Shown: piece by piece, positions 41,742-58,656 of the stretch
Numbering within the stretch: the stretch's first letter is position 1
Layout of the letters: every line of letters begins with the position of its first letter
Assembly: GCA_024397955.1 (NCBI GenBank)
Contig: CP073744.1
Span: forward strand, 1,240,001-1,304,000
Direction of reading: 5' to 3'
Origin: a bacterium SCSIO 12696
Lineage (GTDB): Bacteria > Pseudomonadota > Gammaproteobacteria > Pseudomonadales > Porticoccaceae
Length of the DNA: 64,000 nucleotides
Position numbers and translations under genes: made by a program
The notes under the pieces: model-generated
The model's input: the letters and a program-made list of their open reading frames with translations, nothing else
Told to the model about the DNA's origin: nothing
Database searches by the model: none

Positions 41742-42306
41742 CAAGCACCTTTTTGTATAGACTCTGCTTGGGTACTGCAATCACCTTTCTTACCATTGGG
41801 GCGAACAGGTCAAGAGACAGCTTAGGTCGTGAATTATCGAATGCAATGTTGTCGTACTTGGCAACAAATCGTTCGGTACGTTCGTAATGCTCAGAATCTT
41901 TGAATTTATCCCGCATATTACGATCGACACCAAAATGATGGAAAAAGTTATACCCCTGAAAAATAGCGTGGTGTTTTATCATCCAGTAATTGGCGTCGGA
42001 AACAAATGGCCGCAAAATCTCTGCTGCCACATCCGCATGGTTGAAGCTACCCAGGGTATCGCCGATATCGTGCAATAAAGCACAAACTACGTACTCATCA
42101 TCTTCCCCAGCTTCTGCGGCAAGCTCTGCAGTTTGCAGACAGTGCTGCAAGCGGTCTAAAGGAAAACCACCACAGTCGCCATGAAGCAATTGCATATGCT
42201 GCAGAATTCGATCCGGCAAGCCAGCCATGAATTTTCTCTGCTCACCAACAATAATCTGCCAGTCTTCTTTGGTGCTTTCGGTAAACGATTTGAAGTTTGT
42301 TTTCAT
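41725..42306 (-). CDS. HD-domain protein, PhnZ/TmpB-like
   Basis: A 193-residue protein; the start at 42306 gives MKTNFKSFTESTKED and leaves a 38-base gap to the methyltransferase. The HD ligands are visible: H55 in DRLQHCLQTAELA, H79-D80 in ALLHDIGDTLG, H90 in NHADVA, H112/H113 in IKHHAIF and D152 in KYDNIAFD. The spacing, with an extra central histidine, resembles the di-iron HD oxygenases PhnZ and TmpB of phosphonate breakdown more than HD phosphohydrolases of nucleotides. No Fe/alpha-ketoglutarate partner (PhnY-like) is next to it, so the substrate is open. Confidence 0.7.
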   Translation of the reverse strand: MKTNFKSFTESTKEDWQIIVGEQRKFMAGLPDRILQHMQLLHGDCGGFPLDRLQHCLQTAELAAEAGEDDEYVVCALLHDIGDTLGSFNHADVAAEILRPFVSDANYWMIKHHAIFQGYNFFHHFGVDRNMRDKFKDSEHYERTERFVAKYDNIAFDNSRPKLSLDLFAPMVRKVIAVPKQSLYKKVLGDVSE

Positions 42307-42344
42307 GCCCGATCTCAATTCTTTGCGCACAACAATCCTTGCGA

Positions 42345-43160
42345 TTACGGCTTCACCCCACACACCATAAAACTGGCCACCACACAGAAAAAATGTCCGG
42401 CCTCCGCTGACCGCTCCATATCGGCAATCCAGGTATTTGCCTCTTCTTCGGTTAATAGTCCCTGCTCTTGCATAATCAGTGCCGCATCGGGAAAGCGCCC
42501 GACTTTTTTAGCCCGTTCAAAGTTTGTGCTGGCGCTTAGTCTTGGCGAGGAGATTACGTCTTTTAATCCGGCTTCTTTGAATAAACGGTAATTTTGTCGA
42601 CCGGCCCAGGGGTTGCGCACACGGCTGTTCATAAAAGTTAGAATTTTTTCGGTGAGTTTTCTGTCACTTCCGTCAATCATGCGGCCGCCGTAGTCCGGGT
42701 CGTTAATCAAAATTTTGCCGCCGGGGCGGGTAACTCGAATCATCTCTGCCAGCACCGCTTTGCGGTCTGGCAAATGTTGGAATACCCGGTCTGCCCGACA
42801 GCCATCAAAACTGTTATCGGGAAATTCAAGAGCTTCGCCACTTCCCTGAATGAACTCCACATGCACGCCAGCCTGCTGCGCTTTTTGCTGGGCTTCAGCA
42901 ATCATTACGGCGCTGTTATCAACACCCACAACACGGCCACTGGGGCCAGCGATCTTTGCCAGTTCTATGGCATCGTCACCGGTGCCACAACCCAAATCCA
43001 GGTAGCTGCCACCTTCTCTGGCACCCATTACTTCGTAGCTCTCGCGCTTCCTTTGCTGGGTGCCTTTCATGGCAGTAACTGTATCCAGGTATTCGACAAA
43101 CTCTTGCGCCATTGGCGATCTGTCTACTTCGCTCCAGTGATAAAGGTCGGTCTGTGTCAT
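42345..43160 (-). CDS. Class I SAM-dependent methyltransferase
   Basis: A 271-residue cytoplasmic enzyme. Motif I is SYLDLGCGTGDDAIELAKIA (about 53-72), followed by the acidic VVGVDNSAVMI, FIQGSGEALEFPDNSFDGCR and RVTRPGGKILINDPDYGG. This is the UbiE/BioC-like methyltransferase class; small molecule substrate unknown. It opens the three-gene unit with the HD protein and the Nramp-like transporter, all on the minus strand with short gaps or overlaps, so it may modify the same compound the other two handle. Confidence 0.82.
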   Translation of the reverse strand: MTQTDLYHWSEVDRSPMAQEFVEYLDTVTAMKGTQQRKRESYEVMGAREGGSYLDLGCGTGDDAIELAKIAGPSGRVVGVDNSAVMIAEAQQKAQQAGVHVEFIQGSGEALEFPDNSFDGCRADRVFQHLPDRKAVLAEMIRVTRPGGKILINDPDYGGRMIDGSDRKLTEKILTFMNSRVRNPWAGRQNYRLFKEAGLKDVISSPRLSASTNFERAKKVGRFPDAALIMQEQGLLTEEEANTWIADMERSAEAGHFFCVVASFMVCGVKP

Positions 43161-43230
43161 TATTTATACCTCGTTAAGTACATCTCATTTAATCAATGCC
43201 ACTCCCGCGCAAGCGAGATAATTTCTCTAC

Positions 43231-43324
43231 CGTCATCCCCGCGAAGGCGGGTATGCATAGACCACCGTACTGATACGCCCTCGGCAGTTTTTCCACCATG
43301 GATCCCCGCCTTCGCGGGGATGAC
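43231..43324. repeat. GTCATCCCCGCGAAGGCGGG inverted repeat pair
   Basis: GTCATCCCCGCGAAGGCGGG (43232-43251) faces CCCCGCCTTCGCGGGGATGAC (43304-43324, one base longer arm) across about 50 bases. This is a widespread gammaproteobacterial intergenic repeat. Directly after the last permease stop (43332) it could act as a 3' hairpin of the whole peptide transport transcript. A third, diverged copy lies inside the coding start of a binding protein at 50649-50674. Confidence 0.8.
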
Positions 43325-43331
43325 TTACCGA

Positions 43332-44231
43332 TTAATATTCTGCTTTGGGATCAAAAGCATCCTGCAAACCATCCCCCAAAAAGTTAAACGCAATAACGGT
43401 GATAAAAATCATCAGGCCGGGGTACACCGCCTGCATCGGCGCTTCCCAAATAAGCTGCTGGGCGTTGGTGAGCATATTTCCCCAGCTGGCCACAGGCGGC
43501 TGAATGCCCAGGCCGAGAAAGCTGAGCGCCGATTCCACCAGAATCACCCCACCAATGGAGAGCGTAACGGCGACAATAATCGGGGATAAAAGATTGGGCA
43601 GAATATGGTGGAACATAATGTCTTTATGGCCAGCACCAGCACCTTTGGCGGCCATTACAAATTCCCGTTCCCGCAAACTCAGGGCGGCCCCGCGCACCAG
43701 GCGTGCCTCGCCCGTCCAACCCAATAGGGCGACGATAAACACAATGCGATACAGGCTGACACTTTCTGATTGCACCCAAGCATCGGGCAAACCCAATTTA
43801 CTCAGGTCGATAGCGGCAATCACAATCAACAGGGGCAAACCCGGTAAGGCGATAAAACTGTCGGTCATGCGCATTAAAAACGCATCCACCCGGCCGCCAA
43901 AATAACCCGCCGCCAAACCGATCACGGTACCGATAACCACCGAAAACACCGCCGCCGTAAAGCCTACAAACAGAGAAACACGGCCGCCGTACAGCAAGCG
44001 CAAAAACAGATCACGGCCCAATTCGTCGGTACCCAGCGGATGAGCCAGCGATGGCCCTTGCAAGCGGTTTAATAAATTCACATCGTTGGCACCCACTCCC
44101 ATCCAGATTTCAAACAGGGGTGCGCTCAAGGCCAGCGCAATAAAAAGCAGTAAAATGAAACCGCTGGTCATGGCCAGTTTATGGCGAGTGAAGCGGCGCA
44201 GCGCCAACAATAACGGGGAATTCTGGTTCAT
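43332..44231 (-). CDS. Dipeptide/oligopeptide ABC permease DppC/OppC-like
   Basis: A 299-residue inner membrane permease of the peptide ABC transporter. It has an N-terminal TM region (MTSGFILLLFIALALSAPLF), the LGTDELGRDLFLRLLYGGRV signature of DppC, and the EAA loop AKGAGAGHKDIMFHHILPN that docks to the ATPase. Start overlaps the DppB-like stop by 4 bases. Last gene of the transporter operon. Confidence 0.93.
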   Translation of the reverse strand: MNQNSPLLLALRRFTRHKLAMTSGFILLLFIALALSAPLFEIWMGVGANDVNLLNRLQGPSLAHPLGTDELGRDLFLRLLYGGRVSLFVGFTAAVFSVVIGTVIGLAAGYFGGRVDAFLMRMTDSFIALPGLPLLIVIAAIDLSKLGLPDAWVQSESVSLYRIVFIVALLGWTGEARLVRGAALSLREREFVMAAKGAGAGHKDIMFHHILPNLLSPIIVAVTLSIGGVILVESALSFLGLGIQPPVASWGNMLTNAQQLIWEAPMQAVYPGLMIFITVIAFNFLGDGLQDAFDPKAEY

Positions 44232-45196
44232 GCGGCAGCACCTCCTTCGCCAATCACAATGCGTGGATCAAGCTTGGCATAGCAAATATCCGCTAATAGA
44301 TTGCCCAACAGGGTGAGCACCGTTGCCAACAGTAGTGCCGTCAACGCCAGGTTAAAGTCGTTGCCCATGATGGAATCAAAAATTAATTTGCCCATGCCGG
44401 GCCAGGAAAAGATGGTTTCTACAATCAAGGCACCGGAAAACAGGGAACCGAATTCCAGCGCCAGAATGGTCACCACCGGAATCATGCCGTTGCGCAAACC
44501 GTGGCGCCAAATCACTCGCCACTGGCCGGCGCCTTTGGCTCTTGCGGTACGAATGTAGTCTTTGCGCAACACTTCCAACATGGAGGCGCGCACAAAGCGC
44601 GAATAGCTGCCAACATTCAGAATCACGATAGTGGCCATTGGCAACACCATGTAACGAAATTGCTCCAGCAAGCTGCTACCCGCCGGGGCAGTGCCCCCTG
44701 CCGGTAACCATCCCAGGGTGACACACAGCAAGGTCATCAGCATCAGAGCCAACCAAAACGAAGGCAACGATATACCGGCAAACGCAAACAGGTTGATGCC
44801 GTAATCCAGTACCGAGCGTGGTTTTGACGCAGCCATTACACCCACTGGAATAGCAATGGCGATGGCCACAATAAATGTGGTGCCCATCAAAACCAGGGTA
44901 TTCACCAGCGCCGGGCCGAGCACATCCAATACCGGCTGGCCGAACAACCGTGAATAACCCAGCTCACCAGTGAGCGCTCTGCCCAGCCAGTTCAAGTAGC
45001 GTTCATAAACCGGCACATCCAGGTGATACAACGCTCGTAATGCCGCTACATCTTCCGGGGTCATGGTGGGGTCTTCACTGGCCAGAATATCGATGGGGTC
45101 GCCGGGCATCAGGCCGATCAAACCGTAAATAACGAACGACATCAGTAGAATAACCACCAATGACTGGCCGCAACGGGCCAACAAATATTGCCTCAT
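44228..45196 (-). CDS. Dipeptide/oligopeptide ABC permease DppB/OppB-like
   Basis: A 322-residue permease. Typical GLMPGDPIDILASEDPTMTP after the first helix, ELGYSRLFGQPVLDVL, and the EAA loop TARAKGAGQWRVIWRHGLRN. Overlaps the ATPase before it and the permease after it by 4 bases each, the usual arrangement for matched subunits. Confidence 0.94.
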   Translation of the reverse strand: MRQYLLARCGQSLVVILLMSFVIYGLIGLMPGDPIDILASEDPTMTPEDVAALRALYHLDVPVYERYLNWLGRALTGELGYSRLFGQPVLDVLGPALVNTLVLMGTTFIVAIAIAIPVGVMAASKPRSVLDYGINLFAFAGISLPSFWLALMLMTLLCVTLGWLPAGGTAPAGSSLLEQFRYMVLPMATIVILNVGSYSRFVRASMLEVLRKDYIRTARAKGAGQWRVIWRHGLRNGMIPVVTILALEFGSLFSGALIVETIFSWPGMGKLIFDSIMGNDFNLALTALLLATVLTLLGNLLADICYAKLDPRIVIGEGGAAA

Positions 45197-46218
45197 AGCT
45201 GAACCACCTCCTCAATAACGGTTTGCTCCACAACCTGCTCCGCAAAGTGGCAAGCCACCTGGTGAGTACTGGCTGAATCCGCCACTTCCAGTGCTGGCAT
45301 AGTCTTACGACACTGGTCTTGAGCTTGTGGGCAACGTGGGTGAAATGGACAGCCCTGGGGCGGGCTGATGGGGCTGGGAGGGTCGCCGTGTAAAACTTTG
45401 CCAATTTTGCTTTTGTTGGGTACCACACCGGGCACCGAACTGAGCAGAGCTTGTGTGTAAGGGTGGCGAGGGTTCTGGAACAGGTTGTCCCGTTCGCCAA
45501 CTTCAACAATTCGCCCCAGATACATCACCGCCACCCGATCTGCCAGGTGATGAACCACCGCCAAGTCGTGGCTGATAAACAGATACGTGAGGTTAAATTG
45601 TTCGCGCAGGTCTTTAAGCAAATTCAATATCTGGCTTTGCACCGACACATCCAGCGCCGACACCGGTTCGTCCGCCACCACAAAAGCCGGGTGCAGAATC
45701 AGCGCCCGGGCAATCACAATGCGCTGGCGCTGGCCGCCGCTGAATTCGTGGGGGTATTTGCGCAGGCTGCGCTCTGACAACCCCACTGCTTCCAGTAACT
45801 CCACCGCTTTTTCCCGTCGCAGCTGGGCATTGTCACTGGAAAAAAATTTAAGGGGTTCGGTAAGAATGGCTTCGATGGTATGGCGCGGATTCAGAGACGA
45901 CATTGGATCCTGAAAAATCATCTGCACATGGCGGCGCAGGGGTTTTACCTGCTTGGCGGTTAGTGCCGCAATATTCTCACCCTTAAGGCTCAAATCCCCT
46001 TCACTGGGCTTATAAAAAAGCGACAGCATTCGCCCCAGAGTGGTTTTACCGCAACCACTCTCCCCCACCAATGCCAGAGTTTCCCCGGCAACAATATCCA
46101 GGCTAACGTCCGTTACCGCGTTAACGGTTTTTTTCTGCCAGCCTTTGCCGGTGGCAACACGGGTTTTAAAGCGTTTGCATAAACCGCGAGTGGAAACCAA
46201 CACATTATCCGTGGGCAT
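45193..46218 (-). CDS. Dipeptide/oligopeptide ABC ATPase DppF/OppF-like
   Basis: A 341-residue ATPase. Start at 46218 lies inside the end of the preceding ATPase gene (14-base overlap). Walker A GESGCGKTTLGRMLS, signature FSGGQRQRIVIARAL, Walker B VVADEPVSALD and switch histidine ISHDLAVV are intact. The C-terminal oligopeptide cluster CPFHPRCPQAQDQCRKTMPA, with four cysteines, is the iron-sulfur motif of Opp/Dpp ATPases. Confidence 0.95.
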   Translation of the reverse strand: MPTDNVLVSTRGLCKRFKTRVATGKGWQKKTVNAVTDVSLDIVAGETLALVGESGCGKTTLGRMLSLFYKPSEGDLSLKGENIAALTAKQVKPLRRHVQMIFQDPMSSLNPRHTIEAILTEPLKFFSSDNAQLRREKAVELLEAVGLSERSLRKYPHEFSGGQRQRIVIARALILHPAFVVADEPVSALDVSVQSQILNLLKDLREQFNLTYLFISHDLAVVHHLADRVAVMYLGRIVEVGERDNLFQNPRHPYTQALLSSVPGVVPNKSKIGKVLHGDPPSPISPPQGCPFHPRCPQAQDQCRKTMPALEVADSASTHQVACHFAEQVVEQTVIEEVVQL

Positions 46219-47206
46219 GGCCGACCCCCTGTTTGCTGGAATCCAGAACATGGCAAGTAGCCGTATGGGTTTTGCTCAACGCCAATCTTTCTGGCCGCTG
46301 CTTGCTGCAACAGTCCACAGCCACTGAACAGCGTGGCGCGAAACAACAACCGGGCGGGCGTCGCCGTGGGCCAGGTACGCGACCGGCAATGGCCGGTAAA
46401 CGATCCAGGCTGGCATCAATTTGAGGGGTGGTTTGCAAAAGCGCCTGGGTATAAGGGTGTTGTGAGTTGAGCAAAATTTCGCTGGAACTGCCCTGCTCAA
46501 TCACCCGCCCCGCGTACATCACCGCTATGTCATCCGCCATGCGCGAGACCACGCCAAAATCGTGGCTGATAAACAAAATCGCCGTGCCCAGTGTTTCCTG
46601 CAAATCGTGCATCAGGTCGAGAATTTGCGCCTGAATAGTCACATCCAGTGCGGTGGTCGGTTCATCGGCAATCAGAATTTCCGGCTCGCAGGCCAGGGCA
46701 ATGGCAATCATTACCCGCTGACGCATACCGCCAGACAACTGGTGGGGGTAATTCGCAGCGCGGCAAGCGGGGTCGGGAATACCCACCTTTTCCAGCATGG
46801 CAACCGCTTCTTTAAGCGCGGCTTTTTTTGTCAGCCCCTTGTGCAGAATCAGCGCTTCCGCTACCTGAGCACCTACCGGGAACACTGGATTCAGCGCACT
46901 CATGGGTTCCTGAAAAATCATGGAAATGCGGTTGCCGCGAATTTTTTGCAGCTGGGTATCACCCATGTTTGCCAGGTTATCGCCCTGCAAACAAACCGAG
47001 CCGGAAAGGATTTTCCCAAAGGGTGGCAACAGTTGCAGCAAAGCAAAAGCGGTGAGGGATTTACCGCAACCACTCTCCCCTACCAAGGACAGGGTTTGGC
47101 CCCGTTCCAGGGTAAAGGAAACATCCTCCACCACTCGCACCAAACCATCATCGTTATCGAAACCGATACTCAGGTTATCGACTCTGAGCAAAGCGTTATC
47201 GCTCAT
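46205..47206 (-). CDS. Dipeptide/oligopeptide ABC ATPase DppD/OppD-like
   Basis: A 333-residue ATPase. Start at 47206 (GGAG upstream) overlaps the last binding-protein gene by 4 bases. Walker A GESGCGKSLTAFALL, signature LSGGMRQRVMIAIAL, Walker B LIADEPTTALD, and switch ISHDFGVV. The C-terminal cluster GCCFAPRCSVAVDCCSKQRP carries the Opp/Dpp cysteine motif. It pairs with the DppF-like ATPase. Confidence 0.95.
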   Translation of the reverse strand: MSDNALLRVDNLSIGFDNDDGLVRVVEDVSFTLERGQTLSLVGESGCGKSLTAFALLQLLPPFGKILSGSVCLQGDNLANMGDTQLQKIRGNRISMIFQEPMSALNPVFPVGAQVAEALILHKGLTKKAALKEAVAMLEKVGIPDPACRAANYPHQLSGGMRQRVMIAIALACEPEILIADEPTTALDVTIQAQILDLMHDLQETLGTAILFISHDFGVVSRMADDIAVMYAGRVIEQGSSSEILLNSQHPYTQALLQTTPQIDASLDRLPAIAGRVPGPRRRPPGCCFAPRCSVAVDCCSKQRPERLALSKTHTATCHVLDSSKQGVGHAHG

Positions 47207-48909
47207 GGCTCCATACTCCAATCTTCTACCCACACTGAGCAGGGAGTAATATGCCCGGACGCTCGAAAGCCTTTTAACCCCAAGGGCAAAACGTGAATCT
47301 TAGGACGCCAAAAAAGAGGAATATCCGGTAGTTCGTCAGTAAGAATTGATTGGATAGCTCTCGTCATCTGGTGGTATTTTTGAGCATCGAGTTCCAGCAA
47401 ATGAGCGATTACCAACTCATCCACCTGGGCGTTGCGATAGCCGCCATGGTTCATTCCAGAAAAACCATTTTCGTCGGAAGGAATACTCTCAGAATGGTAT
47501 CTGTGCTTGTAGAGGTGATGCGGGCTGTAACCAACCGCACCGAGCGCCAAACCAGGAAATTTGCGTTTGCGTACCGTCTGGCCGAAAAACACCCGCTGCG
47601 TTTGCGTTGTCAAACGCAGGTCTACCCCAACGTCCCGCCAGTAACTCTGTATGGCCTGGCGAATCAGGTCGCGGGTTTTATCGCCACTGGCACCGCCGAG
47701 TTCCAACTGCAAAGGTTCGCCTTTGTTGTTATAGCGAATGCCACCTCTAATCTCTGTCCACCCCGCTTCTTCCAACAAAGCGATTGCACGGGATTTGTCG
47801 TAGTCGTATTTGTGAACGCCTTCGGGGACCGGTTTGTTATAGCGAATGTAACGCTCGTGCCCTACCGGTTGTTTGCCGTCAAATAATTGTTCGCTGATCT
47901 GCTGCCGATCCAGTGCGTAGAGCAAGGCTTTACGCACTCGTTTGTCGCTGAGGATGGGGTTATCCATGTTTACCAATAAGCGTTCCAGAAGAACCCCATG
48001 AGCATAAAAAATATTAAATTTTTCACCGTGGCGTTTTTCAAAAGAAATCGCCTGATCGATTTGCAGCCCCCCTGCACCACCGGCAATCATATCGATGGTT
48101 CCCGACACCAGGTTCGCCTCCAATGCCGCAGAGTTTTCAATGGCCCGAATGGTGATCTTGTCAAAATAAGGTTGTTTCCCGTACCAATGGGGGTTGCGCT
48201 CCATCACCAGTTCATCCCCTAGTGTCATTTTGGTAATCACATAAGGACCATTCCACAACGCAGGGTTTGCGGGCTCTGCCGAGTAATAACTGTTGTCGAG
48301 GTAAGTCTTGGGGTCGCGTTCAAAGATTGCCCGTTCAAGTCGAGCATTAAGGGGCTTCAGGGGTCTATGATCCTGGTAGTGATAGCCGTCTTCAGCGGAG
48401 TGAAGTACAAAGGTTTTGTCGTCTATTATTTCAAAACGGGAAAATTGTATGTAATAGCCATGGGCTCTGTGACCAGTGGATTTATCGCGCCCCACTTCCC
48501 AACGCAATTTAAAATCTTCACTGGTTATGTGTGAGCCATCACCCCAGCGGGCTTCCGGATGAATATGAAAGGTTTGGGAAATATCTGTCTCCCCGTTGGC
48601 TTTTTGATTCAGAACCGCCAGGCCGTTTTCAAAACTGGGAAGCGTGGTACACAACGTGCAGAAAACTTTGTCTTTATCATCAAAAGTCGTCATACCGCGC
48701 AAAATAAAACCGGATATATAACCGGCGTAGCCCAAGGGCCTGGTACCAGGAAATTGTCCGATGCCGATGCGCAGGTGTTTCTCACTCGCCACTTCAGGTT
48801 TTACTGCATTCGTTTTAACTGTTTCACTTTTGTCGCTACAGGCTGTCAGTAATAACAGCGCAAGCAGCGCTGCACCTGATCGGCAGAAAGCTCTTCTGTT
48901 ATTACGCAT
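47203..48909 (-). CDS. Family 5 solute-binding lipoprotein (paralogue 1)
   Basis: A 568-residue peptide-binding lipoprotein. Start at 48909 (AGGAGA upstream) gives a type II signal peptide with lipobox LLTACSDK (C24). The SBP_bac_5 domain has ARWGDGSHITSEDFKLRWEV, RNPHWYGKQPYFDKITIRAI and RVRKALLYALDRQQISEQLF. A CxxC pair (C84-TL-C87) lies near the start of the mature domain. It is one of five tandem paralogues but the most diverged of the exported ones (GIGQFPGTRPLGYAGY in place of the HRSF motif). Overlaps the ATPase gene by 4 bases. Confidence 0.93.
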   Translation of the reverse strand: MRNNRRAFCRSGAALLALLLLTACSDKSETVKTNAVKPEVASEKHLRIGIGQFPGTRPLGYAGYISGFILRGMTTFDDKDKVFCTLCTTLPSFENGLAVLNQKANGETDISQTFHIHPEARWGDGSHITSEDFKLRWEVGRDKSTGHRAHGYYIQFSRFEIIDDKTFVLHSAEDGYHYQDHRPLKPLNARLERAIFERDPKTYLDNSYYSAEPANPALWNGPYVITKMTLGDELVMERNPHWYGKQPYFDKITIRAIENSAALEANLVSGTIDMIAGGAGGLQIDQAISFEKRHGEKFNIFYAHGVLLERLLVNMDNPILSDKRVRKALLYALDRQQISEQLFDGKQPVGHERYIRYNKPVPEGVHKYDYDKSRAIALLEEAGWTEIRGGIRYNNKGEPLQLELGGASGDKTRDLIRQAIQSYWRDVGVDLRLTTQTQRVFFGQTVRKRKFPGLALGAVGYSPHHLYKHRYHSESIPSDENGFSGMNHGGYRNAQVDELVIAHLLELDAQKYHQMTRAIQSILTDELPDIPLFWRPKIHVLPLGLKGFRASGHITPCSVWVEDWSMEP

Positions 48910-48950
48910 ATTTTTCTCCTGTGCGGCTATTGCTAGCCGAGAACCTGAAC

Positions 48951-50714
48951 TTATTGCCAACGCCACTCTTCAATCCAGTTGGTATCCGGGACCTTGTGGC
49001 CAGAAGCGCGAAAACCTTTTAATTGCAGCGGTAACACATCAACCCGTGGTCGCCAATAAAGCAGCAGCACCGGAACTTCCTCGCGAATGATCCGCATGAT
49101 TTGCTCTGCGTACTGCCGGCGTTTGGCGGCATCCAACTCCTGTTCATAGGCTTCAACCAAGCGGTCCACTTCTGGGTTGTTATAACCCATAGCGTTTTTA
49201 CCACCGTCGTAGGATGAAGAATGGACAGGGCGATACGACCTGTCTGCAGTCGGCGAGGTACCCATTAACGACAGTGCCTTGAAGGCACGCTTACGCATTG
49301 ATTGGCCGAAGAAAACGCGAGCAGTCTGGTTCTTTATTCGCGCATCCGCCCCTACCGCTTTTAGCTGAGCCTGGATAGCCTGTTGGATAAGCTCGCGGGA
49401 TTTGTTGCCACTGGTGCTGAGCAATTCAAATTGCAGAGGCTCGCCGGCACTGTTGTGGCGGATGCCATTTTTAACGTTGTCCCAACCGGCCTGTTCGAGC
49501 AGTGCAATCGCTCGTTGCGGGTCGTAGTTGTATTGGGGCACACCTTCTGGAACTGAGTCATACCTACGGTCCCCAATATGGGCGACCGGTTGCTTGCCGG
49601 CAAAGAGTTGCTGATTTATCCCTTCACGGTCCAGCGCGTAGAGCAGCGCTTGACGCACTCGCTTATCGGCAAGTACCGGATTTTTTTTCATCTGTACAAT
49701 AATGAGTTCCAGCAACGCCTTGTGGGTGTAAAGAACCTGGTAGTCGCTGCCATGACGCTTTTCAAAGGAGATCCCCTGGTCAATTTGCAGGCCGTTAGAC
49801 TGACCGGCAATCATGTCGATGCTACCAGACAGCAGATTGGCCTCCAGCGCTGCGGTGTTTTCAATGGCGCGCAGGGTCACGCTGTCAAAATGGGGTTGTT
49901 CACCGTACCAGTGGGGGTTACGAACCAGGGTTAGTTCGCTACCTGGAGTTACTCTTTCCAACCGATAGGGGCCGTTCCATAGGCCAGGATTGGTGGGGTC
50001 GGTGGTATAGAGGCTGCGATCTTTGTATGTCTCTGGATCCCGCTCGTAGATAGATCGCTCCAGCCACGAGGGAATGGGCGGCATCAACCAGAGATCGTTA
50101 AAGCTGTATTTAATCTCATCGTAGTGCAGCACAAAGGTTTTATCGTCTACCACATCAAACTGGTAAATAGGCTCGAAGGCGCTGGGAGCAATGCTGCCCA
50201 CGTCAAGGTTGCGGCCGATTTCCCAGCGCAGCTTAAAGTCCTCGGCGGTAACCGGCGTACCATCGCCCCAGGAAAATTCCGGGTGAATCTGAACAGTCAC
50301 CGCAATGCCAGGTTTGCCATCCGATGTGGCTTCCAACACCGCAAGACCATTTTCAATAGTTGGCAAAGTCACACAGGTGCGGCATACCAGCTCGCTCTTG
50401 TCGTCATAAATCGTCAGCTCGCGGAGCATAGGCGCAACCGCATAGGTTGAGGACATCATGTTTGTGAAAGAGCGGTGCAAGGTATTGGGGTACTGACCGA
50501 TGCCGACGGTTAGGTGTGTTTTACCGGTTGTTTCAGATTTTGCCGCACTACCGTTGGCAGTTTTACTTTTTTCACTACAGGCGGTTAGCGACAGCAGGAA
50601 GACAAGTCCAAGGCACATTGGCAGGATACCTGGAAACAGCTTGGAGTCGTCATTTCCGCGAAGGCGGGGAGCCATTCCAAAGTCATTCGCTTTCATCTTT
50701 TTCACCCTCAACAT
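48951..50714 (-). CDS. Family 5 solute-binding lipoprotein (paralogue 2)
   Basis: A 587-residue peptide-binding protein. Lipobox LSLTACSE (C46), CxxC at C111-RT-C114 (LVCRTCVTLPTIENG), and domain motifs FSWGDGTPVTAEDFKLRWEI and RNPHWYGEQPHFDSVTLRAI. It ends KVPDTNWIEEWRWQ. The N-terminus is unusual: the signal peptide is preceded by about 30 residues, of which MAPRLRGNDD is the translation of a dispersed DNA repeat (50649-50674). Starts are possible at 50714 (3 bases after the previous stop) or at 50696 (GAGGGTG upstream). Export efficiency with this extended n-region is uncertain. Confidence 0.88.
   Translation of the reverse strand: MLRVKKMKANDFGMAPRLRGNDDSKLFPGILPMCLGLVFLLSLTACSEKSKTANGSAAKSETTGKTHLTVGIGQYPNTLHRSFTNMMSSTYAVAPMLRELTIYDDKSELVCRTCVTLPTIENGLAVLEATSDGKPGIAVTVQIHPEFSWGDGTPVTAEDFKLRWEIGRNLDVGSIAPSAFEPIYQFDVVDDKTFVLHYDEIKYSFNDLWLMPPIPSWLERSIYERDPETYKDRSLYTTDPTNPGLWNGPYRLERVTPGSELTLVRNPHWYGEQPHFDSVTLRAIENTAALEANLLSGSIDMIAGQSNGLQIDQGISFEKRHGSDYQVLYTHKALLELIIVQMKKNPVLADKRVRQALLYALDREGINQQLFAGKQPVAHIGDRRYDSVPEGVPQYNYDPQRAIALLEQAGWDNVKNGIRHNSAGEPLQFELLSTSGNKSRELIQQAIQAQLKAVGADARIKNQTARVFFGQSMRKRAFKALSLMGTSPTADRSYRPVHSSSYDGGKNAMGYNNPEVDRLVEAYEQELDAAKRRQYAEQIMRIIREEVPVLLLYWRPRVDVLPLQLKGFRASGHKVPDTNWIEEWRWQ
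50649..50674. repeat. Intergenic-type repeat inside the start of a coding gene
   Basis: GTCATTTCCGCGAAGGCGGG followed by GAGCCA is a diverged copy of the 43231 repeat (about 22 of 26 bases the same). It lies within the signal region of paralogue 2 and is translated in frame on the minus strand. Confidence 0.8.
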
Positions 50715-50717
50715 TTT

Positions 50718-52433
50718 TTACTCCCAGCGCCATTCTTCAATCCAGTTGGTGCTGACCACAAAATGGCCACTGGCTCGAAAACCGGTCAACTCCAGGGGTA
50801 GCACATCAACCCGTGGGCGCCAATAAAGAGGCAAGTGGGGCAGTTCATCGGTGTAAAGCTGGTTTATTTGCTCGACCAAAACCTGACGTTTTTCGGCGTC
50901 TATTTCTCGATCGTACATATCGGTGAGTCGATTCATTTCGGGATTATTGAAACCACCCCAGTTACCTCCCTGAAAGCCGTTATCGGAAGAACCGATGGAT
51001 TGGGAATTCAGAAAATTGTGGTAGGGCGTGTCTGCCATATTGGGCACTCCCAACTGGGCCAGTCCGGAAAACTTTCTTTTAACCAGCGTCTCGCCTAAAA
51101 AAGATCGCGCCGTTTCATTGCTAATGCGCAGATCAATCCCTACGTCTTTAAGCTGGGCCTGCAAAGCCTGTTGAATCATTTCGCGGGTTTTATTGCCGCT
51201 GATGCTGTTCAGGCTAAGTCTCAGTGGCTCACCTTGGGCGTTATGACGAATGCCATTTTTTATATCGCTCCAGCCTGCGGCTTCCAGCAAGGCAATAGCA
51301 CGATCTTTGTCATAGTCGTATCGGGTAACTTGTTCGGAAACTTTTTGGTTATAACGAATGGCCAGGCCATGTGCCGGTGGCTGTTTACCACCAAAAATTT
51401 GTTGGTTCAGTTGTTCGCGATCGAAGGCGTACATCAATGCCTTGCGAACCCTTTTGTCTGCCAGAATGGGGTTGCTGTGGTTAAGCGGCATAGCTTCGTA
51501 AAGCACGCCCAGGGTATAAACCACTCGATGCTTGTGGCCATGGCGTTTTTCGAAAGACAGCCCTTGATCCACCTGAAAGCCACCGGCCTCGCCAGCCACC
51601 ACATCGATAGTGCCAGACAGCAGATTGGCCTCCAGTGCCGAGGTATTTTCGATCGCCCGCAATGTGATTTTTTCAAACTGCGGCTGGGTGCCATTCCAGT
51701 ATGGATTTTTCGTCATGACCAATTGATTGCCAAAGGTGATTTCTTCAAGCAAATAAGGCCCATGCCAAAGTCCGGGGTTAAGCGGCTCTGTTACATAGAG
51801 GCTGTTATTGCGGTATTCAAGGGGATTTTCTTCAAAAATTGGTCGTTCTAAGTGCGCTGGCACCGGCATCATTTCCTTGATGTAGTTGTAGCTGAAAAAA
51901 ACCTTATCCAGATGCAGCACAAAAGTTTTGTTATCGACAATGTCGAACTGGTAGATAGGCGCAAAATCCGAGGGGCGTTTGGCCCCTACTTTGGGGTTAC
52001 GACCCATTTCCCAGCGCAGTTTAAAATCGTCAGCCACTAACGGCGAGCCATCGCCCCAACGGGCATCCGGCTGAATCTGGAAAGTAACCGCCATACCAGG
52101 TTTGCCATCCGGTGTTTGTTCCAGCTTCGCCAGGCCATTTTCCAGAGTTGGCAAGGTGACGCAGGTACGGCAGACCAGTTGCATATTGTCATCGTAAATA
52201 ACTGGCCTGCGCACTAGAGGCGACAGTGCGTAATGGTCTGCGGTCATGCGCCAGAATGCACGGTGCAAGGTTGACGGGTATTGGTTAATACCGATGACCA
52301 GCTGTTTTTTAATCGGGTTTTCTGAGGCCTCATGTTTAGTGGCTTCTTGCTGGCTATCGCTACAAGCGGCCAGCAACAACAGCGTAAGCAACGGTGTTAT
52401 CGCCTGGCGGAACGTGCTTTTTTTATCACGCAT
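50718..52433 (-). CDS. Family 5 solute-binding lipoprotein (paralogue 3)
   Basis: A 571-residue peptide-binding lipoprotein. Signal peptide with lipobox LLLAACSD (C24), CxxC at C88-RT-C91, and INQYPSTLHRAF at the start of the domain. RWGDGSPLVADDFKLRWEMG, KNPYWNGTQPQFEKITLRAI and DKRVRKALMYAFDREQLNQQ match its paralogues; it ends TNWIEEWRWE. AAGGGG precedes the ATG. The next paralogue starts after 3 bases. Confidence 0.94.
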   Translation of the reverse strand: MRDKKSTFRQAITPLLTLLLLAACSDSQQEATKHEASENPIKKQLVIGINQYPSTLHRAFWRMTADHYALSPLVRRPVIYDDNMQLVCRTCVTLPTLENGLAKLEQTPDGKPGMAVTFQIQPDARWGDGSPLVADDFKLRWEMGRNPKVGAKRPSDFAPIYQFDIVDNKTFVLHLDKVFFSYNYIKEMMPVPAHLERPIFEENPLEYRNNSLYVTEPLNPGLWHGPYLLEEITFGNQLVMTKNPYWNGTQPQFEKITLRAIENTSALEANLLSGTIDVVAGEAGGFQVDQGLSFEKRHGHKHRVVYTLGVLYEAMPLNHSNPILADKRVRKALMYAFDREQLNQQIFGGKQPPAHGLAIRYNQKVSEQVTRYDYDKDRAIALLEAAGWSDIKNGIRHNAQGEPLRLSLNSISGNKTREMIQQALQAQLKDVGIDLRISNETARSFLGETLVKRKFSGLAQLGVPNMADTPYHNFLNSQSIGSSDNGFQGGNWGGFNNPEMNRLTDMYDREIDAEKRQVLVEQINQLYTDELPHLPLYWRPRVDVLPLELTGFRASGHFVVSTNWIEEWRWE

Positions 52434-52472
52434 ATCTTTACCCCTTGCAGTTTGTATTGATTAACCGGGCAT

Positions 52473-54146
52473 TTATTCCCAGCGCCACTCTTCTGCCCAA
52501 TAGCTGGTGCCAATAAATCGGGGGGTACGAAAGCCTTTCAGGTTGCGGGGAATCACCGTGACTCTCGGTTTCCAGAACATCAGGTACGAGGGCAGGTCTT
52601 CGTTGATTAACTCTTCAATGGCGAGCTCTGCCTGGCGGAACTCGGTTTCCAGCAAAGCGGCTTCTTGAACTTCGATCAGGCGGTCCATCTCGGCGCTCTT
52701 GTAGCCACCTCTGTTATAACCGCTGTAATTATTTTCCGGCGTGGGAATAGCAGACGAGTGAAATATGTTGCGATAAGTCCAGTAGGGGTACACAGATCCA
52801 CTTTGCAAAGAAAGGCCAGTAAAGAGGCGTTTTTTGCGGGTTTCCCCAAAGAACACCCGCGCAGTCTGATTGCGAATACGCAGATCAATGCCCACTTGCT
52901 TGAACTGACCCTGCATCCACTGTTGCAGCAATTCACGGGTTTTATTGCCGCTGGCAGTGGCAATTTCCAGCTGCAATGGCTCGCCCTTACTGTTGTGACG
53001 AATGCCCTTTTTTAGTGTTGTCCAACCGGCCTCATTCAAGAGTGCAATGGCTCGCTCGGGATCAAATTGATACTGACGCTCAAAGTTTTCACCGGGCCGA
53101 ATACCTATCGCCGGTGGCTGCTTGCCATCAAACAACAACTGATTAGCCTGGTCGCGATTCAAGGCATGCAACAATGCTCTGCGCACCCGAACATCTGCCA
53201 GAATCCGGTTGTCCAGATTGACGTCCATGTATTCGACTATCACATTTTCTGCGTACACCACCTGGTAATTTCGGCTGTGGCGTTTTTCAAAGGAAATTCC
53301 CTGATCCGCCTGCAAGCCAAAACCAATCATATCGACGGCACCGGAGAGCAGGTTGGCTTCCATCATTGAGGTGTTTTCGATAACTTTGAGCGCAATCTCA
53401 TCAAACTGCGGCCGCTTACCTTGCCAGTGCGGGTTACGCGCCAAAATAAATTCCTTTCCTGTTGTGAGAGATTTCAGCACATAGGGGCCACTCCAGAGCG
53501 CTACGTTAGTAGGCTCGGTTTTGTACAGGGTGTTGTTTCGATAGTTGCCTGGATCACTTTCAAAAATTGGCCGTTCCAGTTTTGAATTAATGGGGAATAA
53601 ATCGCTGATGTTGTTGTATCCATAGGCAGCATTTTTGTAGTACAAAGTAAAAGCCCGATCATCGATCACTTCAAACTTTTCGATACTTTTAAACCAGCTG
53701 GATCGATTAGCGCCTGTGTCTGGGTGACGGCCAATTTCCCAATACAACTTAAAATCGTCGGCGGTCACCGGGGTGCCATCTCCCCAGCGGGCGTCTGGCT
53801 TGATGCGAAAAGTGACCGCTATTCCACGCTCGCCATTCTCCCGGTTAACCACTCTGGCCTGGCCATTTTCCAGCGTGGGAACGCTGATACAGCTGTTACA
53901 TTGCAGCTGCCCCTGATTGTCGAAATACACCGGTTGGCGCAACGTAAAATTCAATGCGTACTTGGCAACGGTTTGCCGGAAAAAAGAACGATGAACACTG
54001 GTCGGGTACTGGCTAATGCCGATGCGAAAGTGTTTTTTATCGGCACTGTCCGAAGAGCTGGCAACGCTGAAAGTACTTAATCCCGAAAGCACCATTGCCA
54101 AAGCAAATATTTTGCAGCAAGTGTTTTGCGATTTTTTGATAGTCAT
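52473..54146 (-). CDS. Family 5 solute-binding protein, soluble periplasmic (paralogue 4)
   Basis: A 557-residue peptide-binding protein. The signal peptide (FALAMVLSGLSTFSVASS) ends without a lipobox cysteine, so it should be released into the periplasm by signal peptidase I, unlike paralogues 1-3. CxxC at C83-NS-C86; SQYPTSVHRSFFRQT, RWGDGTPVTADDFKLYWEIG and RNPHWQGKRPQFDEIALKVI are clear family motifs; ends YWAEEWRWE. AGGAGA precedes the ATG. It is 39 bases after the Phd fusion. Confidence 0.93.
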   Translation of the reverse strand: MTIKKSQNTCCKIFALAMVLSGLSTFSVASSSDSADKKHFRIGISQYPTSVHRSFFRQTVAKYALNFTLRQPVYFDNQGQLQCNSCISVPTLENGQARVVNRENGERGIAVTFRIKPDARWGDGTPVTADDFKLYWEIGRHPDTGANRSSWFKSIEKFEVIDDRAFTLYYKNAAYGYNNISDLFPINSKLERPIFESDPGNYRNNTLYKTEPTNVALWSGPYVLKSLTTGKEFILARNPHWQGKRPQFDEIALKVIENTSMMEANLLSGAVDMIGFGLQADQGISFEKRHSRNYQVVYAENVIVEYMDVNLDNRILADVRVRRALLHALNRDQANQLLFDGKQPPAIGIRPGENFERQYQFDPERAIALLNEAGWTTLKKGIRHNSKGEPLQLEIATASGNKTRELLQQWMQGQFKQVGIDLRIRNQTARVFFGETRKKRLFTGLSLQSGSVYPYWTYRNIFHSSAIPTPENNYSGYNRGGYKSAEMDRLIEVQEAALLETEFRQAELAIEELINEDLPSYLMFWKPRVTVIPRNLKGFRTPRFIGTSYWAEEWRWE

Positions 54147-54185: not shown

Positions 54186-55967
54186 CTATTCCCGGTACCA
54201 TTCCTCGACCCTGCTGCTATTGCCAACCCCGTAACAATTGGGCTGAAAACCTTTTAACCAGGAGGGAATAATGTTGACGCTGGGCCGCCAGAACAGAGGG
54301 ATAATCGGCAACTCCTCGAACACGATGCGCTGAATCGCCACACCCAGATGACGGCGTTCATCGCCGTCCATGGCAGCATCAAATTCCTCGATCAATCGGT
54401 CGACTTTTTCATTGCTAAAGTCCGCCAGATTATTTCCAGCAAAGCTGTTCACTGCGCTGGGTACAGAAGAAGAGTGATAGAGGTTTCGATATTGAAGGTC
54501 GGCACCAACCCCAATGCTATTGAGGGCCAGCGCGGGAAATTGCCGCTTCGACATAATCTGGTTGACGTACAAGGTTGTGGTGTAGTTCTGGAGGTGCAGG
54601 TCAATGCCTATTTTCCTTAACTCCATTTGCATCCACTGCTGCACCAATTCATGCTCTTTATGCCCAATGGCAGACACCAGCTCCAGGCGCAGCGGCTCGC
54701 CCTGCTGATTGTGGCGAATACCTTGTTCGATGGAATTCCAGCCCGCCTCTTCCAGCAGCTGAATCGCTTTGGCCGCATCAAAGTCATAACAGGGAACACC
54801 CTCGATAACCTTTTCGCTGGGGTGGCCGTTAGCAATGACTTGTTTGCCAGAGAAATAATCCTGATTAAATTGCGTCCTGTTCAAGGCATAGAGCAATGCC
54901 TGGCGCACTCTGACATCCGCGAGGATCGGATTGTCCAGATTGAGCCTGACGTTCATCAGCAGTGCGCTTGTGCCAAACAACACTTTGAAGTCGTGGCCAT
55001 GCAGCTCTTCCACGGCAAGCGCCTGAATGGTTTGCATCCCGTATCCCGCCACATCAACGGCGCCCGACAGCACCGCACTTTCCAGTGCGATTACATCCTC
55101 TACGGCAAGAACTCTGATGCGTTCGTAATGGGCTTGCTTGCCAAACCAATGGCGGTTGCGAACCAGAATGTATTCGCTGCGGGAAACCACGGTTTCGAGG
55201 CAAAACGGCCCATTCCACAACGCCGGGTTGGTTGGTTGGGTTCGGTACAGTGAATTCTTTTGATACTCGACCGGGTTGCTTTCAAACACAGGCCTTTCCA
55301 ATCGCGCATTCAGGGGTGTCAAAGGGCTTATATCGCTGAACTCATTTACAACCCCCTTAAAGTGGAGAACAAAAGTTTTGTCATCCACCTGCTCAAAGCG
55401 CTCAATACGCTGAAACCAACTTTTGCTGCGAATATCCAGATCCGGGTGGCAGCTGATTTCCCAGCGCAACTTAAAATCGTCGGAGACGATGGCAGAACCG
55501 TCACCCCAACAGGCCTCCGGAATAATGCGAAAAGTAACTGCCATGCTGCGCTGGCCATCGTCATGGGTGATGATATTGACGTCGCCATTTTCCAAGGTAG
55601 GCAGGCTGACGTACCTTTTGCCATGAAGCTGCCCATCACTGCCGTAGCGCAGCGGCGGGCGCATGATAAAGGCTTGCAAGTAAGCGTCCGTCATCTGGCG
55701 GCCAAAAGAGATATGCAGCGACCCCGGGTATTGGGTGACGCCGACGGTTATCTGTTTGTTATCCACCGCAGATGCTTCGGCCTGCGGCGCAGCGCTCTGC
55801 TCGCTTTGCTGCTCGGTCTGGTAGGCCAGAAATGCCTCAAAATCACTGGCCGATACCACATAAGCCGCCGCCTTGTTATAGCGTTTGATGCATACCGGCC
55901 CGTGCTGGGCTTTTAGCAGCACTTCACCGAATTGGTTTTGGGCATCTTTTGAGCTGTAGGTTTCCAA
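54186..55967 (-). CDS. Phd/YefM-type DNA-binding domain fused to a family 5 solute-binding domain
   Basis: A 593-residue fusion. Residues 1-47 (TYSSKDAQNQFGEVLLKAQ, GPVCIKRYNKAAAYVVSASD) match the DNA-binding half of Phd/YefM antitoxins. A Q/S/A/E-rich linker (48-70) leads to a full SBP_bac_5 domain (ITVGVTQYPGSLHISFGRQ, CWGDGSAIVSDDFKLRWEIS, RVRQALLYALNRTQFNQDYF) ending VEEWYRE. There is no signal peptide or membrane segment, so it should be cytoplasmic. The CxxC of its paralogues is GKRY (116-119) here. The start is TTG at 55967, supported by GAGGAAAAAAACG. It is first of the five paralogues and 33 bases after the SGNH gene. No toxin gene is adjacent. By analogy with SgrR it may sense peptides and control this operon; that is inference. 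Confidence 0.85.
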   Translation of the reverse strand: METYSSKDAQNQFGEVLLKAQHGPVCIKRYNKAAAYVVSASDFEAFLAYQTEQQSEQSAAPQAEASAVDNKQITVGVTQYPGSLHISFGRQMTDAYLQAFIMRPPLRYGSDGQLHGKRYVSLPTLENGDVNIITHDDGQRSMAVTFRIIPEACWGDGSAIVSDDFKLRWEISCHPDLDIRSKSWFQRIERFEQVDDKTFVLHFKGVVNEFSDISPLTPLNARLERPVFESNPVEYQKNSLYRTQPTNPALWNGPFCLETVVSRSEYILVRNRHWFGKQAHYERIRVLAVEDVIALESAVLSGAVDVAGYGMQTIQALAVEELHGHDFKVLFGTSALLMNVRLNLDNPILADVRVRQALLYALNRTQFNQDYFSGKQVIANGHPSEKVIEGVPCYDFDAAKAIQLLEEAGWNSIEQGIRHNQQGEPLRLELVSAIGHKEHELVQQWMQMELRKIGIDLHLQNYTTTLYVNQIMSKRQFPALALNSIGVGADLQYRNLYHSSSVPSAVNSFAGNNLADFSNEKVDRLIEEFDAAMDGDERRHLGVAIQRIVFEELPIIPLFWRPSVNIIPSWLKGFQPNCYGVGNSSRVEEWYRE

Positions 55968-56000
55968 CGTTTTTTTCCTCGTACTTCTATTGCTTGCTAT

Positions 56001-57083
56001 TTACTTTTTGTGTGAGCTGTTGGCGGCGTTGAGTTTTTCCATCAAGATAGCTGCCAGCTCCGCCGTATAGGGCGCCGCATCGTCTGAATGCAGATGTGAC
56101 CATTCCGGAATACGAAAGCCCTGTAGTTCGGAGTGATCTTCAAAGTGAATACCCACGGTATTTGTTTCTTTTAGCAATCTGTCCCAGTGGGTTTTCCTGG
56201 GTAGGTTTTCGCGCTCAAAATCCCGGTAAAACTCCGACGAGGGCGAGCGAACAAAAACCACATCACCGCCACGGGCGCGTATTTTTTCAATATCAGCACT
56301 GATGCCTGACAGAAAAGCATCCATATCCAAGGCGGGCTGCCCTCCTTGCGGCGCCTGCAAAAACATCGCCCAGGTGTTTTCTGCATAAGTCTGGTAGTAA
56401 TCCAGATCTTCCACTTTCCAGAACATTTTGTTGTTGCGGTCGACATCGGTGTCTCTGAGCTTCCACACCGGGTTGCCAGGAGGCCTCACTCCTTCCGGAT
56501 TTTCAACGCGGATTTTTTCAATCAGGGAAAACAGCGGAAACGTGTCGTTGTCGTAAAACGCCAACTGTGGCTCAAGCAACATACTGATGCGCTGCCCCGC
56601 CCACTGGGATGGGCTTTCATCCCGGTAATAGTCAGTGGTATCTCCAAGCAGGCCGGCCTTTTCTGAAAAGAACAATTCCGGTGTCACCCCCACGATCAAC
56701 AATCCGGAAAAATCGTCGTCAGCCGCCAGGTCCCCCAGAAAAGGCCTGGGGTTGGTACCCACTAGCGCCAGCATCACCGGGCGCACGCCAGTGACTTGTT
56801 GGTAGGTATCCAGATCCAGATCGAAAAGAATGCGGCTGGAACCAACCACCGCTACTTCAGCTTCGCCGCGATCCACTTTGCGCCGCTCTATAGACCACAG
56901 GCCGGGGCTGTCGATGTAATAACCGGTCTCATACCCCCAAATCACACGAGCGTTGTATTCCCAGGCAGCAATCCCGAAGGCCATTAATACCAACCCCAGA
57001 ATCAACGCCTTTTTCCAGGGTATTTCAGGAATGGGCCGGTCTTCGTAGGAATAGGGATCAGAATTGGAAGTAGATGAACGCAT
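56001..57083 (-). CDS. SGNH-like periplasmic partner of the MBOAT acyltransferase
   Basis: A 360-residue protein starting at 57083 (GGGAGG upstream). A cytoplasmic tail is followed by a membrane helix (ALILGLVLMAFGIAAW, 26-41) and a periplasmic domain with VVGSSRILFDLDLDTYQ (GSSR at 81-84, the place of the GDS serine) and near the C-terminus PEWSHLHSDDAAPYT with a candidate catalytic histidine. This fits AlgJ/AlgX/DltD-type SGNH proteins that finish acyl transfer started by an MBOAT. It overlaps the MBOAT gene by 26 bases. The acylated polymer is unknown. Confidence 0.75.
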   Translation of the reverse strand: MRSSTSNSDPYSYEDRPIPEIPWKKALILGLVLMAFGIAAWEYNARVIWGYETGYYIDSPGLWSIERRKVDRGEAEVAVVGSSRILFDLDLDTYQQVTGVRPVMLALVGTNPRPFLGDLAADDDFSGLLIVGVTPELFFSEKAGLLGDTTDYYRDESPSQWAGQRISMLLEPQLAFYDNDTFPLFSLIEKIRVENPEGVRPPGNPVWKLRDTDVDRNNKMFWKVEDLDYYQTYAENTWAMFLQAPQGGQPALDMDAFLSGISADIEKIRARGGDVVFVRSPSSEFYRDFERENLPRKTHWDRLLKETNTVGIHFEDHSELQGFRIPEWSHLHSDDAAPYTAELAAILMEKLNAANSSHKK

Positions 57084-58479
57084 CGCCGCCTCCCTGTGTG
57101 ATGATGATGAAAAACAACATAAGCCCCCAGACAACACCTACCAGTGGCCAGGGTGCTTTTTGTACGACGGCCTCGACGGAGGTATCGCGCATCCGCCAGT
57201 GAATCGCCACCATGGCAATGGTGACCACCAACACCTGAACGATATACACGGTAGCCAGTACGTTGGTGCCATCCGGGTTAAACCCAAACATGGATTTGAC
57301 CATCGAAAACGCTTTGTCAAAGCTCTGCGCCCGGAAAAACACCCAGGTGATATTGATAAAGAAATAGGTAACCAGCGCCAGAAAAATGCGAAACAAGATA
57401 GTCTTGGCAATTTGTGCGCCTTTGAATGTGGCTTTCAGCCAGCGCTCTACCGCCAGGTACAAGCCATGCAAACCACCCCAGACCACAAAGGTCCAACTGG
57501 CACCGTGCCACAGACCACCCAGCAGCATAGTTGCCATCAGGTTGATGTAAGTGCGCACCGGCCCGCGCTTGTTGCCGCCCAGAGGAATGTATAAATAATC
57601 CCGCAACCAGGTAGACAGGGAAATATGCCAGCGCCGCCAGAAATCGGAAAAGCCAATGGCCGCATAGGGAAAACGGAAGTTGGTGGGCAGGGAAAAACCC
57701 AACGTCAAACCAACACCAATGGCGGTGGTGGAATAGCCGGCAAAGTCGGAAAAGATCTGCCCGGCAAATGCCAGCGTACCCAGCCAAGCATCGCTAAAGC
57801 TCAATACCGCATCGCTGCCAAACACCGCATCGGAGGCCGGTGCCAGTGCGCCATCGGCAATCACCACTTTCTGGAACATCCCCAGGGTGATCAGCCCCAG
57901 GCCCCAGATAAACATGGACTTGGTGGCTTTGCGTGCTTTTTCAAACTGAGGAATCAAGTGCGTGGGCCGCACAATAGGGCCCGCTACCAACTGCGGGAAA
58001 AAGGTAACAAACAGGGCAAAGTCGAGGAAATTTTTCGCTGGCTTGGCCCGATTCAAGTAAATATCCAGTGAATAGGCCATGGTCTGGAAGGTGTAGAAGG
58101 AAATACCCACCGGCAGAATAATGCTCCAGTCCGGTACTTGGTAGTCGATGCCAAACAGGCTCATAAAGGCCTGCCAGTTGTGCAGCAAGAAATCGCCGTA
58201 CTTAAAAAAGCCGAGAATGCCAAGATTGGTGGCCAGACTGAGAACCAGCAGCAACCTGCGCCGGGACTGAACCTTTTCCACATACAGCCATTTCGCCACA
58301 TGCCAATCCACCAGTGTGGAAATCCACAACAAAATAACGAAAGGCGGGTTCCAGGCGGCGTAAAACAGATAACTGGCCAACAACAGATTGAATTTCTTCT
58401 GCCGCCAGGAAAACGGCAGGTAGTGCAGCAGCAGAACAATTGCGAAAAAGACGATAAAAGTCAGTGAGTTAAATAGCAT
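57058..58479 (-). CDS. MBOAT family O-acyltransferase (AlgI/DltB-like)
   Basis: A 473-residue membrane protein with about ten helices. It has YLFYAAWNPPFVILLWISTL near the start, FPQLVAGPIVRPTHLIPQFE, RDYLYIPLGGNKRGP and the active-site region LLGGLWHGASWTFVVWGGLH with the conserved histidine. AlgI-like enzymes move an acyl group across the inner membrane for polysaccharide or cell wall acetylation. It is the first gene of a long minus-strand run with the SGNH partner and, 33 bases further, the peptide-binding cluster. Confidence 0.93.
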   Translation of the reverse strand: MLFNSLTFIVFFAIVLLLHYLPFSWRQKKFNLLLASYLFYAAWNPPFVILLWISTLVDWHVAKWLYVEKVQSRRRLLLVLSLATNLGILGFFKYGDFLLHNWQAFMSLFGIDYQVPDWSIILPVGISFYTFQTMAYSLDIYLNRAKPAKNFLDFALFVTFFPQLVAGPIVRPTHLIPQFEKARKATKSMFIWGLGLITLGMFQKVVIADGALAPASDAVFGSDAVLSFSDAWLGTLAFAGQIFSDFAGYSTTAIGVGLTLGFSLPTNFRFPYAAIGFSDFWRRWHISLSTWLRDYLYIPLGGNKRGPVRTYINLMATMLLGGLWHGASWTFVVWGGLHGLYLAVERWLKATFKGAQIAKTILFRIFLALVTYFFINITWVFFRAQSFDKAFSMVKSMFGFNPDGTNVLATVYIVQVLVVTIAMVAIHWRMRDTSVEAVVQKAPWPLVGVVWGLMLFFIIITQGGGDAFIYFQF

Positions 58480-58584: not shown

Positions 58585-58626
58585 TGCCTATCTTAGCCAA
58601 GTTAGGGAATATAGCTAAGATAGGCA
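58585..58626. repeat. Perfect 13-bp inverted repeat downstream of dfrA
   Basis: TGCCTATCTTAGC (58585-58597) and GCTAAGATAGGCA (58614-58626) form a perfect stem around a 16-base A/T-rich loop containing AAGTTAGGG. The region from 58480 to 58766 has no gene. It could be an attC-like or terminator palindrome, but the conserved core-site triplets of integron cassettes are not clearly present. Confidence 0.5.
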
Positions 58627-58656
58627 CATTTTCTCAAAATTGCCATTTTGGCCATT

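Follow-up and report, generated by a model that had tools for sequence, protein, structure and literature searches.

The genome of bacterium SCSIO 12696 (Porticoccaceae) encodes a protein in which the N-terminal domain of Phd/YefM antitoxins is fused to a complete family-5 solute-binding domain (SBP_bac_5). The fusion is real, and it has been seen so far in one family of bacteria, the Porticoccaceae. Its gene lies among genes of an oligopeptide-type ABC transporter within a 64,000-nucleotide stretch of contig CP073744.1, which was analyzed as a whole (the window; positions are counted from its first nucleotide). We consider it quite probable that the protein is an SgrR-like cytoplasmic one-component sensor that uses an antitoxin-type DNA-binding domain and acts on its own transport operon. 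No description of a Phd/YefM and SBP_bac_5 fusion, or of a ligand-controlled regulator class of this kind, was found in the open-licence literature.

Architecture and distribution of the fusion

The sequence-only reading of this DNA had claimed a Phd/YefM half followed by an entire family-5 solute-binding domain, and profile searches bore this out, with both parts scoring above curated cut-offs. Residues 1 to 47, for which that reading required a DNA-binding profile match, match PF02604 (35.7 bits; cut-off, 29.8) as well as the NCBIfam profile TIGR01552 (25.6 bits; cut-off, 20.8), and PF00496 scores 151.6 bits. A profile search of the fusion at E values up to 0.1 returned PF02604 and PF00496 only, and no SgrR-type helix-turn-helix domain. 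The predicted fold of the solute-binding part has pLDDT values mostly above 85 and PDB matches across residues 67 to 593, and in the model the two-lobe fold of the family-5 domain is complete. The Phd part was modeled poorly (pLDDT of 54.8 alone and of 37 to 47 for residues 1 to 40 in the full model); its fold is therefore assigned from sequence, and no Phd/YefM entry came up when this part was searched against PDB sequences.

Table 1. Positions of the fusion gene, its parts, and the surrounding features in the window
Feature	Positions	Strand	Basis or remark
Phd/YefM + SBP_bac_5 fusion gene	54186..55967	-	593 aa, TTG start
Residues 1-47, Phd/YefM-type DNA-binding/dimerization domain	55827..55967	-	PF02604 and TIGR01552 above cut-off
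Residues 48-71, variable linker, at the place of the free antitoxins' C-terminal tail	55755..55826	-	alignment with P0124-P0128
Residues 72-593, complete family-5 solute-binding domain	54186..55754	-	PF00496, predicted fold
Place of the exported relatives' CxxC pair; here G116 and Y119	55611..55622	-	127-row alignment
GAGGAA, likely ribosome-binding site ahead of TTG	55975..55980	-	sequence
Candidate operator, 42-bp imperfect palindrome with 13-bp perfect arms	58585..58626	.	
Best sigma-70-like site, TTGAGA-18-TATATT, overlapping the palindrome	58608..58637	-	10/12 positions
MBOAT membrane O-acyltransferase, first gene of the putative operon	57058..58479	-	PF03062
Second gene, unnamed, 378 aa	56001..57137	-	no Pfam or NCBIfam match
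SBP_bac_5 paralogue 1 (SBP1), signal-like N terminus	52473..54146	-	
SBP_bac_5 paralogue 2 (SBP2), lipoprotein-like signal	50718..52433	-	
SBP_bac_5 paralogue 3 (SBP3), lipoprotein-like signal	48951..50714	-	
SBP_bac_5 paralogue 4 (SBP4), lipoprotein-like signal	47203..48966	-	
Two oligopeptide-type ABC ATPases	45193..47233	-	PF00005 and PF08352 in each
Two ABC permeases	43332..45196	-	PF00528 in each

The same fusion is encoded at 94% identity by Porticoccus sp. W117, a genome of the same genus (G002), and a third, partial copy (P0006, 59% identical to the window fusion) is found on a 1,340-base contig of a Porticoccaceae MAG. The search of genomes for the same architecture that the sequence-only reading had suggested turned up these two and no other, so that the sample consists of three sequences, one partial and two 94% alike. 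Four of 97 genomes match the fusion, but over the Phd part only G000 and W117 do; another genome of the genus, G001, has no match to the fusion at an E value of 1e-30. Among the best 120 of 661 whole-protein matches, PF02604 is confined to P0006 and the window's own cluster (P0002), and the same two clusters were recovered when residues 1 to 72 were searched among fusion-length proteins (2/24 candidates). When 84,980 species genomes, a set to which the window's own record possibly does not belong, were scanned for the pattern, one locus was found, that of W117. These fusion searches rely on short exact words, which a distant, independent fusion could escape.

The three parts of the protein differ in conservation. 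Between the window and W117, 46 of 47 residues are identical in the Phd part, 16 of 24 in the linker, and 497 of 522 in the binding domain (dN, 0.023; dS, 0.269). The corresponding fractions in the comparison with P0006 are 44/47, 7/22, and 161/290 (Fisher P of 9e-8 for the Phd versus the solute-binding part).

Solute-binding domain and probable antitoxin ancestry

The solute-binding part was compared with its relatives in a 127-row alignment made of the best 120 of 661 matches, two more window proteins, and five W117 proteins; three W117 proteins occur twice and two other pairs are near-identical, and all of these have the CxxC pair. This pair, which would form a disulfide in the exported relatives, is present in 123 of the 127 proteins and absent from the three fusions and P0098. 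Thus, 123 of 124 non-fused rows have it and all three fusions lack it (Fisher P of 1.2e-5, a statistic that ignores shared ancestry), with the residues G..Y, G..Y, and G..C in its place; the window and W117 fusions have six cysteines at other places. Such a loss in every fusion is as expected of a domain that has left the periplasm. In the same set, positions conserved in at least 98% of the non-fused relatives are changed at 13/65 in the window fusion, 14/65 in W117, and 10/40 in P0006, compared with at most 5/67 among the non-fused proteins; at the 90% level, the changes number 42/133, 45/133, and 22/77, compared with at most 26/141. At two positions, all 124 non-fused rows have arginine, whereas both full-length fusions have histidine (H439) and threonine (T465). 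Together with the CxxC loss, these changes indicate that the fused domain has retained its fold while escaping the constraints on exported proteins, and its ligand may therefore differ from those of the exported paralogues. A peptide is only the commonest guess for family-5 binding proteins; according to PDB entry titles, the ligands of the structural neighbors are peptides, nickel chelates, opines, and chitooligosaccharides. We suggest CxxC loss as a sequence test for other cytoplasmic sensors among such family-5 binding proteins.

Phylogenetically, the fused solute-binding domains form one clade (support, 100/100) that adjoins the clade holding the window's SBP1 and W117 SBP3; the P0006 branch is long and was flagged by the tree tool. 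The sequences are consistent with one old fusion in which the Phd part has changed least since.

The closest free relatives of the antitoxin part (P0124 to P0128) are 63 to 77% identical to it over the N-terminal part. The similarity declines beyond about residue 52, the point at which their C-terminal, toxin-binding tail begins, and this tail is absent from the fusion. A free relative in genome G158 (48% identical) overlaps a downstream gene with a ParE_toxin match of 63.5 bits; W117 also has a free relative (42% identical), with a PF05016 (ParE-family) match just downstream, and a plasmid-borne one (40% identical) stands ahead of a PIN-family toxin. The toxin of the captured antitoxin was probably, not certainly, of the ParE type. 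Among 369 genomes sampled from the class, only the window's own has a strong match to the antitoxin part, and three others have matches that are 33 to 38% identical. None of 143 genomes of another order has a match, plasmid records contain two (about 40% identical), and the scan of viral sequences for relatives of the antitoxin part found none, nor any phage record.

Putative transport operon and candidate operator

On the minus strand, the series begins with the MBOAT gene, the unnamed gene, and the fusion and continues with four binding proteins, two ATPases, and two permeases. Neighbors within it overlap or are less than 45 nt apart, and these genes were therefore treated as one putative operon. 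Beyond the permeases lie, in this order, genes for a methyltransferase, an HD protein, an Nramp-type transporter, an S9 peptidase, and an amino acid permease. The signals and the PF00496 and ABC profiles agree with the sequence-only reading that four exported paralogues and an ABC transporter follow the fusion. The unnamed second gene adjoins the MBOAT gene in both genomes seen, and from its resemblance we take its product to be possibly an SGNH-type partner of the MBOAT protein.

Relative to W117 (L014, 9344-16425), the window (47203-54146) has its exported binding-protein genes rearranged. SBP2, SBP3, and SBP4 of the window match W117 SBP1, SBP2, and SBP4 at 87 to 92% identity, and the best W117 match of SBP1 is SBP3, at 60%. 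Downstream of the HD gene, the window has the Nramp-type transporter and the S9 prolyl oligopeptidase (38133-41780); in W117 the amino acid permease gene directly follows the HD gene. Synonymous divergence from W117 (dS) is 0.23 to 0.29 in the MBOAT, unnamed, and fusion genes (54186-58479), 0.69 to 0.90 in the ABC genes, and 1.3 to 1.7 in the methyltransferase and HD genes (the latter two groups together at 41725-47233). The lower divergence of the MBOAT-unnamed-fusion block suggests transfer or recombination of that block.

The operator had been placed next to the fusion gene by the sequence-only reading, but the inverted-repeat search of 55960-56100 came back empty and this location was rejected; a palindrome was found instead upstream of the MBOAT gene. 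Four sigma-70-like sites, called by consensus match only, were found in the region, compared with 2.2 expected. When the spacer was shuffled 20,000 times, 13-bp arms within 25 nt turned up four times, but inverted repeats of that size are found at four separate places in the 64-kb window. In W117, the arms are identical and the palindrome is more symmetric (38/42 positions versus 32/42 in the window). Unmismatched arms occur only at this operon in the window genome and W117 and do not occur in G001; the palindrome pattern is present in 1 of the 369 class genomes, the window's own, and absent from viral contigs. Half-sites with one or two mismatches are no commoner than in the reversed control (24 versus 27 in the window genome). 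Relative to W117, changes fall at 0 of 26 arm positions, 3 of 16 inner-spacer positions, and 12 of 167 flanking positions, but with surrounding DNA that is itself about 93% alike between the two genomes, the unchanged arms are weak footprinting evidence. By eye, the W117 DNA upstream of the operon (L015, 2870-3800) differs from that of the window; in the aligned stretch, the two become similar from a terminator-like repeat onward, some 60 bases ahead of the palindrome.

The TGTACA core that is reported for YefM operators in PMC4803016 is absent from the palindrome, an argument against a simple carry-over of specificity; in the window, TGTACA occurs at the chance level (12 matches versus 11.7 expected). 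A reading of the palindrome as RNA is disfavored, given that the window has no Rfam match at the gathering score and no T-run follows the palindrome on the minus strand. The likely promoter would start transcripts inside the palindrome, and a DNA operator is therefore preferred.

Proposed regulation and alternative readings

In the proposed mechanism, the N-terminal 47 residues would derive from a Phd/YefM antitoxin that lost its toxin-binding tail and probably belonged to a ParE-type module; they would stand where a duplicated binding protein had its signal peptide. The Phd parts most likely pair, which would bring two solute-binding domains onto one DNA site. Once imported, the solute would be bound by these domains in the cytoplasm, and their closure would alter how tightly the dimer binds the 42-bp palindrome over the operon promoter. 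The outcome would most likely be relief of autorepression, with activation as the alternative; autorepression is favored because Phd and YefM are described as repressors of their own operons in PMC4803016. We infer DNA binding, dimerization, the ligand, the operon, and the direction of control in this model. Of the regulator proposed by the sequence-only reading, one part is supported by the profiles, the three sequences, the CxxC loss, and the conservation of the Phd part: a cytoplasmic fusion protein whose DNA-binding domain is of the antitoxin type. The proposed operator region is not supported.

A mis-called start in a gene for an exported binding protein would fit the TTG start codon, the four exported paralogues that come after the gene, and the frame in W117, which is open for 38 further codons upstream, to an ATG inside the preceding gene. 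However, this extension is not conserved (it contains 23-nt and 1-nt indels, and the window has no matching extension); W117 keeps both the TTG and the GAGGA, and P0006 starts three residues earlier than the window fusion. A hydropathy scan of the first 70 residues found no signal-like stretch in any of the three fusions, as had been claimed for the protein and as that claim required of its homologues: the best 14-residue means are 1.08, 0.94, and 0.74, compared with 2.04 to 2.87 in eight exported paralogues of the window genome and W117. The same analysis found neither a signal peptide nor a lipobox in the window fusion. The nucleotide changes between the window and W117 in the Phd part are five synonymous and one other, and the CxxC pair is lost. 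A mis-called start was rejected on the signal scan and the unconserved extension, and we give it next to no credence. That the fusion still serves as antitoxin or decoy to a partner toxin is very improbable, and this was rejected as the main reading. The source does name P0006 a prevent-host-death antitoxin, but the fusion lacks the antitoxin tail, and no toxin gene stands beside it, the profiled neighbors being MBOAT, the unnamed ORF without a family match, solute-binding, and ABC genes. Furthermore, the window genome, one contig of 2,930,128 bases, has a single PF02604 match, the fusion itself, and no PF05016 match in a genome-wide search for toxins of that family.

Two other readings accept a cytoplasmic protein. 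The Phd part might not bind DNA and might serve only as a dimerization or proteolysis tag on a solute-binding protein that acts as a buffer or chaperone. The N-terminal domain of Phd is indeed a dimerization domain according to PMC4803016, and DNA binding by the fusion is predicted from sequence; nevertheless, no other piece of the protein is as conserved as the Phd part, whose basic stretch VCIKRYNK is identical in 8/8 rows, fusions and free relatives alike, and we regard a mere tag as unlikely. A possible, if doubtful, reading keeps the fusion as a cytoplasmic regulator, one that binds elsewhere or controls another locus, and assigns the palindrome to a different regulator. The missing TGTACA core would fit this, as would the report in PMC4803016 that the antitoxin MqsA acts on distant genes. 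Conversely, the exact arms are found in both fusion-bearing genomes, only at this operon, and G001 lacks both arms and fusion. Moreover, known YefM operators are palindromes over promoters according to PMC4803016: an incomplete 44-bp palindrome over the promoter in Streptococcus pneumoniae and a long palindrome overlapping the -10 element in E. coli.

The sensor model places the fusion beside known one-component regulators. SgrR and DsvR, as described in PMC13060122, likewise combine an N-terminal DNA-binding domain and a C-terminal SBP_bac_5-type domain in one chain. Their DNA-binding domain is a helix-turn-helix, whereas that of the fusion is of the Phd/YefM type, and the fusion gene, unlike theirs, sits within an oligopeptide-type ABC gene run; the lack of an export signal is shared with SgrR-type proteins. 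A further difference from the enteric SgrR members is that no SgrS RNA was matched in the window, Rfam presumably including an SgrS family. With Phd/YefM antitoxins the fusion shares the N-terminal domain, but it lacks the tail, has no toxin gene among its profiled neighbors, and carries a ligand-binding domain instead. Compared with Opp/Dpp/Nik family-5 proteins, it has the complete fold and is 40 to 44% identical to its four neighboring paralogues, but it lacks the signal-like stretch and the CxxC pair and has unusually many conserved positions changed.

On balance, we favor the view that the DNA-binding half of an antitoxin was captured and released from its toxin, and that it now provides the output of a one-component regulator that senses a metabolite. 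If so, the fusion would illustrate a route from toxin-antitoxin genes to ordinary metabolic switches, and the Phd/YefM DNA-binding module would be portable and drivable by a small-molecule domain in place of a toxin. The four exported paralogues may aid in finding the ligand. If true, the capture would be a clear example of metabolism recruiting part of a toxin-antitoxin system, and it comes with a concrete prediction of the operator.
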